Assembly (NCBI GenBank): GCA_000471925.1
Contig: CP006668.1
Span: 1-64,000, forward strand
DNA length: 64,000 nt
Direction of reading: 5' to 3'
From: Ralstonia pickettii DTP0602
GTDB lineage: Bacteria > Pseudomonadota > Gammaproteobacteria > Burkholderiales > Burkholderiaceae
In this document: positions 5,667-53,273 of the stretch, piece after piece
Layout: every line of letters begins with the position of its first letter
Numbering within the stretch: the first letter of the stretch is position 1
Notes under the pieces: model-generated
Seen by the model: only the letters and a program-made list of their open reading frames with translations
Database searches by the model: none
Told to the model about the DNA's origin: nothing
Translations under genes and position numbers: made by a program

Positions 5667-6300
5667 GGGCGTCGGAATGAATTGGTCAGGGCAACGAACG
5701 GGGCAAATCTGGCTGACTTCGGGCTGGCAGGTGCTGGGCGCGGTACCTGCGGTAACTTATTGATTTATAAGGCACCTGAAATTGCCGCAAATCCATCCGA
5801 CCCGAAATGCACAGCAAAACGCAATGCCGATAATTCTATGCGACTTTACGTGCAGTCGGGGCACCCGCAGCGGCACCAAACGTCTCTTTGCGTGCGTATG
5901 CTCAGCCCAATGGGCCGGCTCAGGGTCGGCCGGCCCTGGGTCGGGGAAAACCCGCCGCGATGCAACAGAGCCTTGCTTTTGCAGAGCCTGTTTCATAAGC
6001 TGAACACCAGAATTAGATTTGTTTAAATCTGACTTGAATAGTTTCTAAAGCGTCAGTCAACGATAAGCGTCAGGGTGAATCGTCGCCCAGGCGGGGACGT
6101 CCGAACGGGCGCAAACGGGGCGATCCGGCACCTCCATGGGAAGGGGCGGCAGCGGCAACCGACGGGAAGCTGCGACCGGCCAGGAGCCAGGCGGGATCGT
6201 ATGGAAAGGCCAATCGCAGGATAGCGGCAGCCGTTCCAACAGCAAACGCAGGTCTTCGCAGAGCCTGTGCTTGCCGAAATCAATAAGAAGGAGAGCGGCC
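5667..6300. other. intergenic region upstream of the first LuxR-type gene
   Basis: A 634-base gap with no convincing gene. A/T content rises around 5750-6050. AGATTT-GTTT-AAATCT at 6015-6030 is a short hairpin or operator candidate, and the string GCAGAGCCTGT occurs twice (near 5980 and 6256). The promoter of the gene at 6301 should lie here. Confidence 0.5.
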
Positions 6301-7110
6301 ATGGCCAGCATCCTCTTGGTCGAACACCATCCACTACTGCGCCTGGGGCTTCGTCATCTCCTGGCACAAGCACACCTCCCTGGCGACCTTATCGATTTCG
6401 ATCCGCTCGCGCCGATCGACCCCGACCTCTGGCTGATCGACGCGGATCTGCTTGTCTACGGACTTCCGGCCGACTCTGCCGCCGGCTGGGCCCAGCTCGA
6501 TGCGCTGTGCCAGCAGTTGCGGCCGCGGCGCGTGCTGCTGCTGACCGACCAGCCCAACGCGGTGCTGTCCGGCCCGGCGCTGCCCGTGCCGGTACGCGGC
6601 TGCGTGCACAAGACCGCCAGTGCCGAGGCGCTCGATGCCGCGGTACGGCTGGTGCTGGCCGGCGGCGAGTGCTTTCCGTCCCAGCTGCAGTGCGAGACAG
6701 CCCCCGGCGGCGCTGGCGCGCATCCGACGCTGGTGGTCGATGCCACGGCCCAGGCGCCGGTGGTGATCCCACTGCATGCGGTCCGCGGCGATGGCAGGCC
6801 AGCGGTACCCGCCGCGCCGGCTCAGCAGGCGAGCGAGACGCCTTCGGCAGGCGCGCACCTGCTCAATATCACCGAGCGCCAGTACGAAGTGCTGGCACTG
6901 CTGGCACGCGGCTATCCGATCAAGACCGTCAGCCGGCTGCTCAATATCTCGATTGCCACGGCCAAGACGCATGCCTGCACGCTCTACCAGCGGCTGCATG
7001 TGCGCAACAAGGGCGAAGCCGTCTACGTAGCGCTGCAGCGCGGTGCCACGCTCGACTGGGCCGGCCCGCCGGCCGCCGCCAGGCCCGCCGGGACCTGCCA
7101 GGCTGCCTGA
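6301..7110 (+). CDS. LuxR-family regulator with atypical (pseudo) receiver
   Basis: A 269-residue regulator with an N-terminal receiver-like domain and a C-terminal LuxR/NarL helix-turn-helix (TERQYEVLALLARGYPIKTV, then NISIATAKTHACTLYQRLHV). The receiver is unusual. The acidic pocket reads VEHHP, and the position of the phosphorylated Asp in the DLLVYGLP strand is Gly54, so classic phosphorylation is unlikely; the Lys of HKTAS is kept. The ATG at 6301 follows AAGGAGAG, better than in-frame starts upstream. It is a close paralogue of the gene at 36008-36988, which flanks the polysaccharide locus at the other side. Confidence 0.9.
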   Translation: MASILLVEHHPLLRLGLRHLLAQAHLPGDLIDFDPLAPIDPDLWLIDADLLVYGLPADSAAGWAQLDALCQQLRPRRVLLLTDQPNAVLSGPALPVPVRGCVHKTASAEALDAAVRLVLAGGECFPSQLQCETAPGGAGAHPTLVVDATAQAPVVIPLHAVRGDGRPAVPAAPAQQASETPSAGAHLLNITERQYEVLALLARGYPIKTVSRLLNISIATAKTHACTLYQRLHVRNKGEAVYVALQRGATLDWAGPPAAARPAGTCQAA

Positions 7111-47705: not shown

Positions 47706-47723
47706 TGTCACAGCGGTGTGACA
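47706..47723. promoter_or_regulatory. inverted repeat TGTCACA-N4-TGTGACA
   Basis: Perfect 7-4-7 palindrome 250 bases upstream of the glycine-rich protein gene. It shares its half-site with the direct repeat at 47940-47954. Confidence 0.55.
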
Positions 47724-47972: not shown

Positions 47973-49511
47973 ATGAAAAAGACCTTACTGGCGTCGGCAA
48001 TCGCCATGGCATTTGCGGGAACGGCATGGGCAAATCCGACCAATAACAACAAGGAAGTGAGAGGCGGTGGGGACAACAACCAAACCGCTACGGCGACCTC
48101 GTCGCAGGGTGGCAGCGGCGCGGCAGCGAACGAGTATTCGACCGCTGTCCAGAAGAATGACAGCAGCACGACCACCAAGACGAGCACAAAGACCACCACG
48201 GTCGGGATTGCTGTCGACAAGTCGCAGACCAGCTCGAACAACAAGACCAAGACCAATTCCGACAACCGCCTGAAGGCTTCGGCTGACGGTATCGGGACCG
48301 CCGCTGCGGTGGGCGGTTCCGCATCGTCCAGCATCGCCAGCTCCTTCAACAAGACCACGGCAATTGCCCTCAGCAAGCTGAGTGGCACGGTGGCCAACAA
48401 CTACGTCCACAACATCGGCAACTATGCCTCGAACCACGGTAACGCCAACGGTGGGACCGGCTTCGGCGGGAAGGGTGGCGAGGGTGGCAACGGCGGCACT
48501 GGCAACGGCGGCGAGGGCGGAAACGGCGCTACCGGCGCAGTCGGTGGAAGCGCCACGGCAACCAACGGCAGCGCCAGCGCTGGTGATGCCAAGAGCGGCT
48601 GGGCCAAGGCCGGCGATGGCGGCAACGGTGGCAAGGCCTCTAACTGGGGCGCCAATGGCGGCGACGCCTATGGCAAGGGCGGCAGCGCGCTTAGCGCGGC
48701 GGGCAGCAAGGGCGGCAGCGGCGGTGACGCCTCTGGCAAGGGCGGCGGCGCTCTGAGCGCTTCGCTTGGCGCGGGCGGCAAGGGTGGCGGTGCCGGTGCG
48801 ATCGGCGGTGGCGGCCTGGGCGCCAGCGGTGCCTTGGGCGGTCTTGCCGGTACGGCCGGTGGTGGGGGCGGTAGCAGCGGCAGTGCCGACGGTCGCGGTG
48901 CCGACAGCACTGGCAATGGCGGCGCGGGTGGCAGCGCAGGGTCCTCGAGCGCAGCCGGCACGGCGGGCGCAGGCACTGGCACGGGCGGCGCAGCGGGCGC
49001 CAGCGGCGGTGCGGGCGGTGCCGGAACCTCCAGCGCGAGCGCAACCGGCGGTGCCGGCAGCGGCACTGGCGGTGCCGGTGGCGGCAGCACGGCAGGCTCG
49101 TCGGCAACGGCCGGCTCAGGCACGGCGACTGGCGGTGCCGGCGGAACGCAGACCGCATCGGGCGGCGCCGGTGGCGCTGGCGGTTCGGCCACCGCAGGTT
49201 CGGCCACCACGGCAGCCTCGAACGGCAGCGCCACCACGGGCAGCGGCGGCGCCGGCGGTGCCGGCGGAGCCGGCGGTGCGGCGACCGGCGGTACTGGTGG
49301 TGCTGGCGGCGTCGGCAACGGCGGCGCGGGCGGTACTGGTGGCGCTGGCGGCTACAACTACGTGACCGCAGGCACCTTCGACATGTCCAACACCATGACC
49401 AGCGTCGGTCAGACGGCGGCGGGCATCATGATGGCGGTCCAGAACAGCGGAGCCTCGTCGCTGGTGCAGCAAGGCGTCAACGTGCAGGCCAACGTCAACG
49501 CGGGCAGGTAA
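47973..49511 (+). CDS. large Gly/Ala/Ser-rich secreted protein, candidate fibre subunit
   Basis: A 512-residue secreted protein. Signal peptide MKKTLLASAIAMAFAGTAWA; then an Asn/Thr/Ser/Lys-rich region (about 21-160) beginning NPTNNNKEVRGGGDN; a long low-complexity block of GG(A/T/S)GG, GNGG and SATAG repeats (about 165-470); and a distinct C-terminus with MAVQNSGASSLVQQGVNVQANV. The C-terminal QN-x-G-x-(S/N) pattern recurs in the next secreted proteins. GGGAG precedes the ATG. Composition suits an extracellular amyloid or matrix protein; adhesin is an alternative. Confidence 0.8.
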   Translation: MKKTLLASAIAMAFAGTAWANPTNNNKEVRGGGDNNQTATATSSQGGSGAAANEYSTAVQKNDSSTTTKTSTKTTTVGIAVDKSQTSSNNKTKTNSDNRLKASADGIGTAAAVGGSASSSIASSFNKTTAIALSKLSGTVANNYVHNIGNYASNHGNANGGTGFGGKGGEGGNGGTGNGGEGGNGATGAVGGSATATNGSASAGDAKSGWAKAGDGGNGGKASNWGANGGDAYGKGGSALSAAGSKGGSGGDASGKGGGALSASLGAGGKGGGAGAIGGGGLGASGALGGLAGTAGGGGGSSGSADGRGADSTGNGGAGGSAGSSSAAGTAGAGTGTGGAAGASGGAGGAGTSSASATGGAGSGTGGAGGGSTAGSSATAGSGTATGGAGGTQTASGGAGGAGGSATAGSATTAASNGSATTGSGGAGGAGGAGGAATGGTGGAGGVGNGGAGGTGGAGGYNYVTAGTFDMSNTMTSVGQTAAGIMMAVQNSGASSLVQQGVNVQANVNAGR

Positions 49512-49524
49512 GACGCGCAGCCCT

Positions 49525-49558
49525 GGCCCGTCCTGAGCCTTCGGGCAAGGGACGGGCC
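49525..49558 (+). terminator. stem-loop after the glycine-rich gene
   Basis: GGCCCGTCC (49525-49533) pairs with GGACGGGCC (49550-49558), with an inner GCC-TTCG-GGC. No T-run follows, so it may act as a partial terminator or mRNA stabiliser between the first and second genes of the locus. Confidence 0.55.
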
Positions 49559-49587
49559 TGAAGCTTCAACGTCAAGCCGGCAGGACC

Positions 49588-49614
49588 GGCGCCCGCATCC
49601 TGTGTGCGGGCGCC
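49588..49614 (+). terminator. second stem-loop in the same gap
   Basis: GGCGCCCGCA pairs with TGCGGGCGCC around TCCTGTG. Lacks a T-run; could limit read-through into the accessory genes. Confidence 0.45.
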
Positions 49615-49697
49615 CGGGCCCTGTCATGCCTATGCAAGCCTAATTGCCTTGCAGCCGCCCGGATGGGAGCGGCTCGCGGGCAAAGGGAGACGACACC

Positions 49698-50132
49698 ATG
49701 CAATCGGTCCGCTTCGCCGTCGGGACATTCGCGACGGTCTTACTCGCCTGGCCAGTGCTGCAGGCTCACGCTGAGCCGCCAGGGCTGGAAGCCGCCATGG
49801 CAGCCGCGCGCACCGCCTCGGGCAGTGCCCAGGTAACGGCAGCCACGGACGCGCAGACACCAGCGGCCGAGACCACCTTGTTCGGAAGGGTGGCGAAAGC
49901 TGTACCTGCGTCTAAACTGGATGACATCCGTGGTGGCGCCGAGGTCACGGTGAACGACATGCGCCTGCACGGTACCGTGGCCGACAACGCCGCGGTCAAT
50001 ATTTTGTCCGGCGCGAACAACATCACGGACGGGGCTTTCGCGAACGCGGCGGGGATTCCAACCGCGATCCAGAACTCGGGCTCGAACGTGCTGATCCAGA
50101 ACGCCACCATCGTCAACGTCCAGTTCAAATGA
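49698..50132 (+). CDS. secreted RGG-motif protein 1 (candidate C39 substrate)
   Basis: A 144-residue exported protein: signal peptide ending QAHA (residue 25), a variable pro-region, then KLDDIRGG (73-80) and a 64-residue tail AEVTVNDMRLHGTVADN... containing PTAIQNSGSNVLIQNATIVN. The motif matches the double-glycine leader end (ELxxIxGG) cut by C39 peptidases, and a C39 gene overlaps its stop by four bases. The tail shares the IQN.G.N pattern with the other secreted proteins of the locus. No family recognised. Confidence 0.75.
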   Translation: MQSVRFAVGTFATVLLAWPVLQAHAEPPGLEAAMAAARTASGSAQVTAATDAQTPAAETTLFGRVAKAVPASKLDDIRGGAEVTVNDMRLHGTVADNAAVNILSGANNITDGAFANAAGIPTAIQNSGSNVLIQNATIVNVQFK

Positions 50133-50830
50133 TGATGCCGCTGCGAAGGTTGTTGACGTCTGTATCGTTTCTGCTGGCCGCGGGGGCTATCCCTTGCGCG
50201 CAGGCGGCCGACACCGTGCTCTACGGCCCGGTCGGCGAACCCTACAGCGTCAGGGTCACCAGTGTTCGCGAGGCGCGCTTCAAGTCCACGATCCGCCAGC
50301 AATACGATTTCAGTTGCGGCTCGGCCGCGGTGGCCACGCTGTTGACTTACCAGTACGGCCATCCGATGAACGAGGCCACCGTGTTCCAGAACATGTACCT
50401 CAACGGCGACCAGCAGAAGATTCGCGCCGAGGGGTTCTCGCTGCTGGACATGAAGCGCTTCCTGGCCGCGCTCGGCTACGAGGCCGACGGCTATGAACTG
50501 CCGCTGTCCAAGCTGGAAGAAACGCAGGTGCCCGCCATCGTGCTGATCGTGGAAAACGGCTATCACCATTTCGTGGTGGTCAAGGGCGTGAAAGGCAATC
50601 GCGTGCTGGTCGGCGATCCCGCGCGCGGCACACGCGCCATGTCACGCGAGCATTTCGAGACGATCTGGGACAGCCAGCTGCTGTTCGTGATCCATAACCG
50701 CACGGAGAAGGCGCGGTTCAACCTGGCTGCCGACTGGCGCGTCGCGCCAAGCGGCCCTTACTGGATGGGAGTCAACCGGGATAGCCTGTTCTTCACCGTC
50801 ATGCCCAAGCATGGCGTTAGCGATTTCTGA
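50129..50830 (+). CDS. stand-alone C39-type cysteine peptidase (FapD-like)
   Basis: A 233-residue papain-fold peptidase with a signal peptide (LLTSVSFLLAAGAIPCAQA), hence periplasmic. Catalytic residues are visible: Cys63 in QYDFSCGSAA with Gln before it, His146/147 in YHHFVVVKG and Asp163 in VGDPARG. Unlike bacteriocin exporters, it has no ABC transporter domains. FapD of the Pseudomonas amyloid operon has this layout. It sits between two RGG-motif proteins, overlapping the first. Confidence 0.9.
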   Translation: MMMPLRRLLTSVSFLLAAGAIPCAQAADTVLYGPVGEPYSVRVTSVREARFKSTIRQQYDFSCGSAAVATLLTYQYGHPMNEATVFQNMYLNGDQQKIRAEGFSLLDMKRFLAALGYEADGYELPLSKLEETQVPAIVLIVENGYHHFVVVKGVKGNRVLVGDPARGTRAMSREHFETIWDSQLLFVIHNRTEKARFNLAADWRVAPSGPYWMGVNRDSLFFTVMPKHGVSDF

Positions 50831-50840
50831 GGAACGCATC

Positions 50841-51758
50841 ATGTTGCAGACTTCCTTCCCGGCCCCAGCAGCCCCTCGCAGCGCCGTTTCAGCGGCCGTT
50901 GCCATGCTGCTGGGCGCCGGTATGGTCTGTGCCGGCGCGGCGCAGGCCAGCGATCTGCCACAGCCCGACGCCCTCGACGCGTCGGCGCTGCCGTCGCAGG
51001 CGGCCAGTTCCGCCCGTGACCCGGACCAAAACCCTCTGGCTGCCGCGCGCGGCAGCATGGCCGGCTGGAAACCGGTTGCAAAGGAGAAGCTCGACGAGAT
51101 GCGGGGCGGCTTCGAGGTGCCGGGCCTGCAGGTTTCGTTCGGTATCGAACGCGCGGTGTACCTGAACGGGGCCCTGGTCGTCGCAACCACCATTAACATC
51201 CCCGATGTCGGCCGCATTACCGCCGACCAGGCCGCGCAGCTTGCCACGGCGCTCGGGCCCGCTATCGTTGCCAGCACCAATGCCGCGGTCAATAGCGCGA
51301 TGGCGGCCAATCCGGTGACGGCTGGGGTTCAGTTGGGCGCGGATGGCGCGAGCGCGGGCAGTGCAGGCGCCGCGGCGTCGGCAAGCGGCGCAGCGGGCGC
51401 CAGTGGCGCCGCGTCGGTGGCGGCCAATGGCGGTGCCGCGGCCAGCGCCGGCGCGGCCGGGGCCAGTTCGAGCGCCAGCGGTGCGGCCGGCTTGCCGGGC
51501 ACGACCGTAACCACGGCCACGGGCCAGGTGCTTACCAACGGGCTCCTGAACGTGATCCAGAACGGCCCGGGCAATGCGGCAGCGGTCGGATCGCTGGCGG
51601 GTACGCCCACGACGGTGATCCAGAACACATTGAACAACCAGAGCATCCGGAGCCTGATGACAATCGACGCAAGCGTGAATACGCTGCAGGCATTCCGGTC
51701 GCAATTGGCCAACACCGCGCTGAACAGTGCGCTGATGCGGGCCGCAAGCATGAGGTAG
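50841..51758 (+). CDS. secreted RGG-motif protein 2 (candidate C39 substrate)
   Basis: A 305-residue exported protein: signal peptide ending AQAS (about 36), pro-region, KLDEMRGG at 83-90, then FEVPGLQVSFGIERAVYLNG..., a Gly/Ala/Ser-rich central block (about 165-220) and a C-terminus with LLNVIQNGPGN and TVIQNTLNNQSIRSLM. The double-glycine position and the following EV match the first protein, implying a shared processing site. GAGG precedes the ATG, ten bases after the peptidase stop. Confidence 0.75.
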   Translation: MLQTSFPAPAAPRSAVSAAVAMLLGAGMVCAGAAQASDLPQPDALDASALPSQAASSARDPDQNPLAAARGSMAGWKPVAKEKLDEMRGGFEVPGLQVSFGIERAVYLNGALVVATTINIPDVGRITADQAAQLATALGPAIVASTNAAVNSAMAANPVTAGVQLGADGASAGSAGAAASASGAAGASGAASVAANGGAAASAGAAGASSSASGAAGLPGTTVTTATGQVLTNGLLNVIQNGPGNAAAVGSLAGTPTTVIQNTLNNQSIRSLMTIDASVNTLQAFRSQLANTALNSALMRAASMR

Positions 51759-51833
51759 TCGTAGCGAGGCATGAGGCAGTACAGGTCGCAGACTCCTGCA
51801 CAACAGTTTGCCGTCCCGGGGGAGGAAGACGTC

Positions 51834-53273
51834 ATGAAGAAGCGGTCGATGCAGGGCATTCGCAATGCGGGATGCTCGACGTTACTGTTGCTCGGCGGTC
51901 TGGCGCAGGCCCAGACGCCGCCGGATGCGGGACCAGCCGCAGCCGGACTGGAAGCGCTGCAGAAGGAACTCGCCGACCAGGCCACCCAGCTCGACGCCAT
52001 GAAGCGGGCGCTGGCCGAACAGGAGGCGGTGATCCGCGAGCTGCGCAACGTGATCGGCACCGAGGTGCTGGCCAACAAGCGCGGCGGCCAGCGCGCGGGG
52101 CCCGGCGTGTCGCCGTCCGACAATGCCACCAACGCCGCCACCGCGGCGGCCGCTGCCAGCGCCACGCAGTCAGCGCCCAACGCGGTCAACAACCCGCAGC
52201 AGATCATTCTCCAGCCACCGCAGGACATGGCCCAGGGTCCGCAGGCGGGCGAGTCCGCCGACGGGCAGACCGTGGCCCTGGAAGAACCCGTGGGCCGCCC
52301 GCCGGAGGAAGACCGCCGTCCGCCCGAGATCGCACCGATCATCGACCAGCCTGGCGTGCTGACCGCCCAGGGCAAGCTGGTGATCGAGCCCGGCTTCCAG
52401 TACGGCTATTCCTCCAATAACCGCGTCGCGCTGGTCGGCTACACGGTCATCCCGGCCATCCTGATCGGCCTGATCGATGTGCGCGAGGTCAAGACCTCGA
52501 CCTACATCCCGTCGGTCGCGTTTCGCTACGGCTTGACCAAGCGGCTGGAAATCGAAGCCAAGGTGCCTTACGTGCATTCATCGGGCCAGACCGTCAGCCG
52601 CGAGGTATTCACCGGCACGGCCGTCGACCGCGTGTTCAATGCGAGCGGCAGCGGCATCGGCGACGTCGAAGCGACGGTGCGCTACCAGCTCAACTACGGC
52701 AATGAGAAGATTCCATACTTCGTCGGCTGGCTGCGCTACAAGTCCGCGACCGGCAAGGACCCGTTCGAGGTCGTGACCGATTGCGTGACGCGCTGCGTGG
52801 GCAATGCCACTGGCACCGGCCTGCCGCTGGGGCTGCCTACCGGCACCGGCTTCCAGGCGATCCAGCCCGGCATCACCTGGCTGCTGCCGACCGACCCGGC
52901 GGTGTTCTTCGGCACCTTCAGCTACCTGCACAACTTTGCGCGCGACAACGTGAGCCGCACCGTGCTCAACGGCGAGAAGGAACCGCTGGGCAAGATCGCG
53001 CCGGGGGATATCTTCGAGTTCAGCTTCGGCATGGGCCTGTCGCTCAACGAGAAGGCCTCGTTCAGTATCGGCTATGACCAGGCCATCATCTGGCCGACCA
53101 AGCAGAACGGCCAGACCGTGCCGGGTTCGGTGCGCGTAACCCAGGGCACCTTGCTGGTGGGGTATTCGTACCGCTTCAACAACCGCTATACGCTGAACCT
53201 GTCGGTGGGTGCTGGCCTGACCCGCGACACGCCAGACCTGCAAGTCAACCTCCGCCTGCCGATCACTTTCTGA
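51834..53273 (+). CDS. outer-membrane beta-barrel protein with coiled-coil N-terminus (FapF-like)
   Basis: A 479-residue protein: signal peptide ending AQAQ, a heptad-rich helix (LEALQKELADQATQLDAMKRALAEQEAVIRELRN split over residues 38-70), an Ala/Asn/Gln/Pro linker, then from about residue 190 a barrel with alternating aromatic strands (LVIEPGFQYGYSSNN, SVAFRYGLTKRLEIEAKVPY, TLLVGYSYRFNNRYTLNLSVG) ending in Phe. Coiled coil plus barrel is the layout of FapF, the amyloid export pore. It is also similar to generic MetA-type barrel transporters. Last gene of the block. Confidence 0.8.
   Translation: MKKRSMQGIRNAGCSTLLLLGGLAQAQTPPDAGPAAAGLEALQKELADQATQLDAMKRALAEQEAVIRELRNVIGTEVLANKRGGQRAGPGVSPSDNATNAATAAAAASATQSAPNAVNNPQQIILQPPQDMAQGPQAGESADGQTVALEEPVGRPPEEDRRPPEIAPIIDQPGVLTAQGKLVIEPGFQYGYSSNNRVALVGYTVIPAILIGLIDVREVKTSTYIPSVAFRYGLTKRLEIEAKVPYVHSSGQTVSREVFTGTAVDRVFNASGSGIGDVEATVRYQLNYGNEKIPYFVGWLRYKSATGKDPFEVVTDCVTRCVGNATGTGLPLGLPTGTGFQAIQPGITWLLPTDPAVFFGTFSYLHNFARDNVSRTVLNGEKEPLGKIAPGDIFEFSFGMGLSLNEKASFSIGYDQAIIWPTKQNGQTVPGSVRVTQGTLLVGYSYRFNNRYTLNLSVGAGLTRDTPDLQVNLRLPITF

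Follow-up and report, generated by a model that had tools for sequence, protein, structure and literature searches.

Double-glycine leaders in a candidate third lineage of FapD/FapF-type export loci and a related leader in FapE

Introduction

What does a free periplasmic C39 peptidase cut when it is encoded beside a FapF-like outer-membrane pore? The question is raised by five consecutive genes (G1 to G5) at positions 47973-53273, plus strand, of a 64,000-nucleotide stretch of Ralstonia pickettii DTP0602 (GenBank assembly GCA_000471925.1, contig CP006668.1, positions 1 to 64,000 of the forward strand), which is here called the window. A first-pass annotation had compared the peptidase and the barrel protein of this locus with FapD and FapF of the Pseudomonas functional amyloid and had proposed an alternative fibre or matrix system. 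Dueholm et al. considered FapD and FapF likely members of larger families in 2013 (PMC3792158), and Rouse et al. in 2018 reported that homologues of fapD and fapF are colocalised in five more phyla and described the FapD substrate as yet to be determined (PMC6173800). The analysis presented here makes it probable that the locus belongs to a third lineage of FapD/FapF-type export systems, in which G3 would cut leaders on G2 and G4 and thereby license the export of G1 via G5.

Features of the locus

All five open reading frames (ORFs) were recovered by ORF calls on the window, and they are of the types that the first-pass annotation had assigned, namely, a Gly/Ala/Ser-rich secreted protein (30% Gly, 19% Ala, and 12% Ser), a short secreted protein, a C39 peptidase, a second secreted protein, and a coiled-coil/barrel protein. 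Each of the five proteins has a Sec-type signal peptide at the N terminus, as judged by eye. At its 3' end, G2 overlaps the first bases of G3; 10 bases separate G3 from G4, and 75 bases separate G4 from G5. Among the named matches, the closest relatives of the locus are those of Cupriavidus. The genes and predicted sites are as follows (the translations of the G2 and G4 sites were checked).

47973..49511, plus strand: G1, secreted Gly/Ala/Ser-rich protein of 512 amino acids, proposed bulk cargo
49698..50132, plus strand: G2, small secreted protein of 144 amino acids with a Sec signal, a variable pro-region, a double-glycine leader, and a 64-amino-acid mature part
49917..49937, plus strand: G2 residues 74-80, LDDIRGG, a predicted C39 site with V at -12 and L at -7; the cut would follow RGG
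50129..50830, plus strand: G3, periplasmic C39 cysteine peptidase of 233 amino acids, relative of FapD and FilB
50315..50317, plus strand: codon of the G3 catalytic Cys63, within QQYDFSCGSAA
50841..51758, plus strand: G4, secreted protein of 305 amino acids, counterpart of FapE over the leader block
51090..51110, plus strand: G4 residues 84-90, LDEMRGG, a predicted C39 site with V at -12 and L at -7; the cut would precede F
51834..53273, plus strand: G5, FapF-like outer-membrane protein of 479 amino acids
52068..52088, plus strand: G5 residues 79-85, LANKRGG, where the coiled coil ends; a possible third site, less certain than the other two

Double-glycine leaders of G2 and G4

Behind the Sec signal, G2 and G4 share the block h(-12)-x4-L(-7)-x3-R-G-G, where h is hydrophobic. 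The block has all the features of double-glycine leader substrates (a hydrophobic residue at -12, L at -7, G at -2, and G, A, or S at -1) and, as far as its sequence tells, is a textbook C39 double-glycine leader that is new here; no paper naming it was found in the open-licence literature. Its conservation was followed in the best 80 of 536 C39 matches (the named loci), in which phmmer retrieved relatives of G1 in 74, of G2 in 79, of G4 in 80, and of G5 in 76, some of them fragments at contig ends. With the pattern anchored on conserved residues downstream of the site and all 79 G2 and 80 G4 rows counted, L...RGG was present in G4 of all 80 loci and L...RG[GA] in G2 of 77 out of 79 (76 RGG and 1 RGA); in loci L043 and L044, G2 escaped the anchor pattern yet is printed with RGG. 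L(-7), R(-3), and G(-2) are invariant in the anchored proteins. At -12, 75 of 77 G2 proteins have V, M, I, or L, and 74 of 80 G4 proteins have V, I, or L. Hydrophobic residues prevail at -4, where 14 of 77 G2 proteins have H. The spacing agrees with that of the ComA recognition sequence, in which Leu(-12)-(X)3-Glu(-8)-Leu(-7) precedes a double Gly (PMC6363468), except that position -8 is mostly K, R, or Q here. In both families, the stretch between signal and leader is poorly conserved and the part behind the leader is well conserved. The leader region of G2 (residues 71-77) is predicted to be a short helix.

As controls, L...RGG was sought within the first 130 residues of the other predicted genes of the same loci, where it occurs in 26 of 731, and in the other genes with a signal-peptide-like start, where it occurs in 1 of 69. 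Eleven of the 416 six-frame ORFs of the window hold the pattern, G2, G4, and G5 among them. A second set of loci was obtained with a G4 profile (A2), not with C39, from 200 genomes of the order, taken as Burkholderiales; 17 were positive, and the 15 loci examined are those outside the window's own genome and genome G002. In these loci, G4 contains [LM]...RGG in 14 out of 15, the remaining one being at a contig end, and G2 contains L-x3-RG in 10 out of 13 and L-x3-TG in the other 3. The G2 and G4 ORFs of the second set were found with profiles truncated to the region downstream of the site; as the loci themselves were found with the whole A2 profile, the G2 leaders are the cleaner test. The invariant columns of profiles A2 and A3 are not independent evidence, because these were built from motif-bearing loci.

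The G2 and G4 families are related in a profile comparison (E value of 2.8e-11, with reversed controls of 0.31 and 0.083). The mature part of G2 is strongly conserved across genera. A total of 484 G2 homologues were found in the protein database, with no functional name among the 120 listed, and neither 37 G2 members in Pfam nor 43 G4-family members in NCBIfam had a match at an E value of up to 0.01.

Conservation of the cassette

The first-pass annotation had suggested co-occurrence of the genes as a check, and G2, G3, G4, and G5 are indeed found together widely. In the second set, C39 adjoins G4 in 14 out of 15 loci, G2 is present in 13, and a G5 relative is present in 14; the order G2-C39-G4 holds in all 13 loci that have the three genes. 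The G2-G3-G4 cassette is conserved in Burkholderiales and Lysobacteraceae and takes looser forms in other groups; G5 switches strand or side in some genera. Of 200 sampled genomes of the window's family, taken as Burkholderiaceae, 50 have a C39 peptidase of this type (at least 57% identity), as do 20 of the 22 same-genus genomes listed. All five genes are present in C. metallidurans CH34, whose G2, G4, and G5 contain L...RGG. One looser cassette (L150, 3076-5041) has three G2-like genes in a row with weak scores of 24, 18, and 44 bits, the first two being longer and rich in DNS motifs.

The C39 peptidase and its lineage

G3 matches Pfam Peptidase_C39 (PF03412) with 86.7 bits (cut-off of 22), and its catalytic triad of Cys63, His147, and Asp163 is intact, as checked at the codons. 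The QQYDFSCGSAA-type Cys motif and the triad are kept in 15 of the 15 cassette loci printed. Profile searches against FapD and FapF, which the first-pass annotation had advised, gave scores for both G3 and G5 that lie below the NCBI cut-offs. G3 reaches 144.5 bits on the NCBIfam FapD model (cut-off of 330) and 138.8 bits on the FilB model (cut-off of 475). The FapD of locus L139, which lies next to a protein scoring above the FapC cut-off, likewise stays below the FapD cut-off, at 273.7 bits.

The 16 cassette sequences form one group (support of 100/98) in a tree calculated from 49 C39 domains, and this group is joined by the looser gammaproteobacterial cassettes (98/97) and then by Fil (99/97), with Fap outside. 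The tree was rooted at the midpoint, which is set by one very long branch, and the split filB of L206 was left out. At an E value of up to 10, the window's genome yields only one other C39 match, a C39-like part of a long ORF in which a pattern search found no catalytic Cys. Several genomes of the window's family contain this C39 together with a second one at 34-40% identity, which sits in a Fap-type operon in the loci examined. On this sequence evidence, the locus is a third lineage of the FapD/FapF-type machine, placed next to Fil in the C39 tree. It is not a canonical Fap locus, and filing it as Fap would be wrong.

The FapF-like pore

The likeness to the FapD/FapF layout noted in the first-pass annotation proved to be true homology. 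Residues 160-479 of G5 match the FapF crystal structures in the PDB with an E value of 4.7e-29 (phmmer), and the next different protein among the solved structures has an E value of 0.34. The AlphaFold2 model from 30 relatives (mean predicted local distance difference test [pLDDT] score of 69.8) contains two helices (36-74 and 77-83), a linker of low confidence that extends to 159, and barrel strands at 182-474, in agreement with the coiled-coil/barrel reading. FapF chains hold ranks 1 to 18 in a Foldseek search (best E value of 1.5e-20, 24-27% identity), followed by the COG4313 channel as the next fold (14% identity). The PTG motif of the barrel described previously (PMC6173800) is invariant across the 30 G5 relatives (P335-G337). 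G5 thus has the barrel, the periplasmic coiled coil, and the linker of the FapF fold according to sequence, AlphaFold2, and Foldseek. It scores 146 bits on the NCBIfam FapF model (cut-off of 700) and 36.2 bits on the FilC model (cut-off of 630). The first-pass annotation had named grouping with phenol-degradation-type transporters as the outcome that would speak against it; G5 does not group so, because FapF is its best match by both sequence and fold, and no Pfam phenol-family match was found at an E value of up to 1. A peptidase site as a universal feature of G5 was rejected, since L-x3-RG is found in only 18 of 30 aligned G5 proteins (L-x3-RA in 7 and neither in 5), and the strict pattern is found in 0 of 33 canonical FapF proteins.

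G1 and its upstream region

The conserved parts of G1 are its signal peptide and a C-terminal block. G1 had no Pfam or NCBIfam match at an E value of up to 1, and the Fap-repeat profile reached at least 8 bits in 0 of 74 G1 proteins. G1 was ruled out as a leader substrate, as L...[RK]GG occurs in 1 of 101 best-hit G1 ORFs; it lacks a conserved leader, and no cut is predicted in it. Directly after the signal peptide, RGG is present in the window and L032 among the named rows printed, and KGG is present in L071 and L097. The C-terminal block resembles the C terminus of G2 in hhalign (E values of 1.7e-4 and 1.9e-5, reversed controls of 0.26 and 0.25), a likeness to be read against the E value of 0.0011 of the block with its own reverse. 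Two tandem G1-like genes were observed in Paraburkholderia loci L071, L074, L081, L087, L097, L104, and L110. One further element lies upstream of G1.

47706..47723, no strand: palindrome TGTCACA-N4-TGTGACA, perfect, 18 bp, about 250-260 bp 5' of G1, candidate regulator site

The palindrome, checked against the letters of the window, starts 259-269 bases 5' of the G1 start in 28 of 30 printed upstream regions of the Cupriavidus group (L032-L064), and at least one heptamer is found in 35 of 67 upstream regions examined versus 9 of 200 mononucleotide-shuffled sequences.

A related leader in FapE

The first-pass annotation held the secreted proteins to be unlike those of Fap. This stands for FapA, FapB, and FapC, whose NCBIfam models, like that of FapE, gave no match to the five locus proteins at an E value of up to 1. 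It does not stand for G4, which is akin to FapE over the leader block, so that one of the supposedly un-Fap-like proteins has a Fap counterpart. The G4 and FapE families match in hhalign with E values of 3e-7, 5.8e-8, and 5.9e-9, the reversed controls of the latter two being 0.3 and 0.47. The strict leader, whose last residues are RG[KR] or TGK and which is followed by Y, F, or H, is present in FapE of 29 of 33 canonical operons, including 12 of 12 from Pseudomonadaceae, 8 of 8 from other Gammaproteobacteria (among them Aeromonas caviae), and 9 of 13 from the window's family. Three of the four misses differ solely at -12, and in the fourth (L166) the longest ORF extends far upstream. Pseudomonadaceae here stands for the family of genome G361, which was picked for a strong OprF match; the operons of this family were not used in building the FapE profile. 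The Pseudomonas-like operons were reached via OprF and FapF family searches, and FapE searches of the protein database had no Pseudomonas protein among the matches listed. Elsewhere in the Fap operons, the strict leader is found in 0 of 52 FapB/C-type ORFs, 0 of 33 FapF proteins, and 0 of 32 FapD proteins. E occupies -8 in 19 of the 29 strict leaders, as in ComA. The site is predicted at residue 40-43 in those Pseudomonadaceae ORFs that are not extended upstream.

In a 2017 study, N-terminal processing was complete in FapE alone among the Fap proteins, and the C38A substitution in FapD abolished secretion; that study described the Fap proteins as lacking canonical C39 sequences (PMC5557850). 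FapD is thought to process the N terminus of FapE and the periplasmic region of FapF, according to a 2025 review (PMC12822426). The FapE leader fits this published processing and suggests a site. Given this shared leader, the cut that FapD is predicted to make in FapE lies at L-x3-[RT]-G-[KR].

Ten canonical-type Fap operons begin with an additional gene for a small secreted protein, at the following positions.

L139, 11267-11581
L140, 11749-12027
L145, 3084-3368
L148, 11479-11835
L159, 8993-9547
L161, 9745-10224
L166, 2796-3341
L168, 3414-3785
L170, 2736-3158
L172, 9650-9994

All seven of these proteins with the C-terminal part printed contain VxLWDE, and nine out of ten contain a leader-like L-x3-[RSN]-G-x (L148 has RA). 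The three scanned, those of L139, L140, and L170, had no NCBIfam match. This "LWDE" protein is possibly a further FapD substrate. FapE homologues of Paraburkholderia and Pandoraea (e.g., P0135, P0137, and P0139) are labelled "peptidase C39" in public records, which is apparently a wrong name that has been transferred.

Proposed mechanism and alternatives

The following course of events is inferred for the locus. All five proteins would cross the inner membrane by Sec, and G5 would form a trimeric, plugged outer-membrane pore tethered by coiled coils. Double-glycine signals of this kind are cut in the cytosol by the C39 domains of ATP-binding cassette (ABC) transporters; at this locus, G3 would cut G2 and G4 in the periplasm, after the RGG of the leader, and perhaps also G5 at LANKRGG. 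The freed mature G2 and G4 may then exit through G5 or dock on it, opening or capping the route, and their maturation would license the export of the leaderless G1 as the bulk Gly-rich matrix product. G4 would thus play the role that FapE plays in Fap. The product would be a fibre or matrix, and a surface fibre is favoured by analogy, because the kin system Fil has the cell-surface fibre subunit FilA (PMC11784438). Overall, the interpretation of the first-pass annotation is partly supported, and the processing peptidase that it proposed gains G2 and G4 as named putative substrates. A wider reading, toward which we incline only slightly, is that the C39 peptidases of Fap, Fil, and the cassette all cut L(-7)-x3-[RTS]-G(-2)-x(-1) and that removal of this leader, carried by a FapE-, FilA-, or G2/G4-like protein, licenses export through a FapF-type pore and so couples Sec-delivered surface proteins to it. 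The FapD target would then be LRG[RK] before Y or F in FapE, with the "LWDE" protein as a second one.

Several observations weigh against these readings. The cut sites in G2 and G4 are predictions. The G4-FapE match covers only 36-43 columns, mostly leader, so convergence on one kind of peptidase may account for it, and most of the FapE rows from outside Pseudomonadaceae were also used to build the FapE profile. The -1 residue of FapE is K or R in all 29 strict leaders and that of FilA-like proteins is Q, whereas classical C39 sites have G, A, or S; FapD would therefore differ at that pocket, or the cut would be one residue earlier. The published FapE data cited here have no peptides in the first ~70 residues, a gap that a cut at 40-43 does not alone explain. 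In addition, 12 of 30 G5 proteins have no L-x3-RG, a G1 relative (C-terminal profile) was found in only 3 of 15 second-set loci, and the G2 model is poor (pLDDT of 60), with no predicted structure in the mature part. The Fap-repeat profile scores at least 8 bits in 18 of 79 G2 proteins, versus 0 of 80 G4 proteins and 0 of 731 flanking genes, with none at 12 bits, and V-x-Q-x2-G is visible by eye in both G2 and the repeat. In a profile-profile comparison, G2 matches the Fap repeat with an E value of 0.003 and its own reverse with 0.0018; no amyloid repeat is claimed for G2, because the former match is no better than the latter.

The leader may instead be a docking signal that is not cut, with G3 binding G2 and G4 and handing them to G5, in the manner of the catalytically inactive C39-like domains found in certain type I secretion systems. 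Some C39-like domains merely bind (PMC5557850, PMC6173800), and the nonclassical -1 residue of FapE points the same way. This is unlikely, given that the catalytic triad is kept in all the cassette loci printed, that secretion fails with the FapD Cys mutant and the N terminus of FapE is processed (PMC5557850), and that the true RGG of this lineage is a good C39 site. Slightly less likely again is a divergent canonical Fap amyloid with G1 as a FapC that has drifted beyond recognition. G3, G4, and G5 are akin to FapD, FapE, and FapF in the same order, and G1 lies 5' of the peptidase, like FapC; the absence of NCBIfam FapA, FapB, FapC, and FapE matches in the five proteins, the Fap-repeat count of zero in G1, the grouping of the cassette with Fil in the C39 tree, and the genomes with this C39 and a second one in a Fap-type operon all argue against it.

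The double-glycine leader is typical of small exported peptides, and mature G2 is short and strongly conserved, so the cassette could be thought to export such peptides as signals or bacteriocin-like toxins. We regard this as improbable. Most bacteriocins are not highly conserved across genera, whereas mature G2 is; the cassette has a Sec signal and a FapF-type pore, not an ABC exporter; and no immunity-like partner was recognised in it, with no dedicated search made. The kin system Fil makes the cell-surface fibre protein FilA (PMC11784438). That G5 is a COG4313/phenol-degradation-type uptake channel for small molecules with unrelated neighbours is largely refuted and very improbable: COG4313 is the next fold after FapF, but the FapF chains precede it at 24-27% versus 14% identity, only FapF matches G5 at an E value of <0.3 among solved structures, Pfam phenol-family matches are absent at an E value of up to 1, and the genes co-occur across loci.

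The preferred reading, a third FapD/FapF-type lineage in which G3 would cut the leaders of G2 and G4, gives the locus its value as a readable leader, which suggests where the target site of FapD may lie. FapE was already suspected as the FapD target from proteomics; since the block of the sister system ends in plain Gly-Gly, the FapE site becomes readable, with a residue number in Pseudomonas, and the open question of the FapD substrate becomes directly testable by a simple peptide assay. The 2025 review screens for Fap by FapB/C repeats (PMC12822426), and surveys anchored on such repeats seem to pass over a widespread relative with other cargo. In the open-licence literature, nothing was found that joins Cupriavidus, a C39 family peptidase, and biofilm.

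Comparison with known systems

The C39 domains of ABC exporters (ComA, PCAT1, and LahT) share the peptidase fold with G3 and a leader with a hydrophobic -12, L at -7, and G at -2. G3 differs in being free and periplasmic by its signal peptide, and its putative substrates enter by Sec. COG4313 channels share the barrel fold with G5 but are farther from it than FapF by both sequence and fold, and the passages of PMC6173800 cited here report no peptidase partner for them.

Fil of Acinetobacter (FilA-F) has the nearest C39 lineage, and its FilC is distantly like G5. FilA-like proteins in L206, L234, and L235 contain [LM]-x3-[TS]-G-Q near the N terminus, as seen by eye, and this leader was not seen by eye in L236-L238. 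Fil differs in the leader end (TGQ or SGQ) and in the extra genes filE and filF annotated in L206, and no G1, G2, or G4 is labelled in the Fil loci printed. In L206, a plasmid entry of A. baumannii VB1190, filB is apparently split into two ORFs (5703-6134 and 6144-6536). On a Vibrio plasmid (L207, 6902-7849 and 9032-10036), a short barrel protein resembling FapF is encoded close to a protein that looks secreted and contains FNDNSD repeats.

Fap of Pseudomonas differs from the locus in several respects. FapA, FapB, and FapC were not found here, the locus proteins lie below the NCBI FapD and FapF cut-offs, the leader ends in RGG instead of RG[KR] or TGK, and the locus has the extra leader-bearing G2 5' of the peptidase and the Gly-rich G1 as the likely cargo. 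What the two systems share is a C39 peptidase, a leader-bearing FapE-like protein directly 3' of it, and a FapF-like pore, in the order D-E-F.

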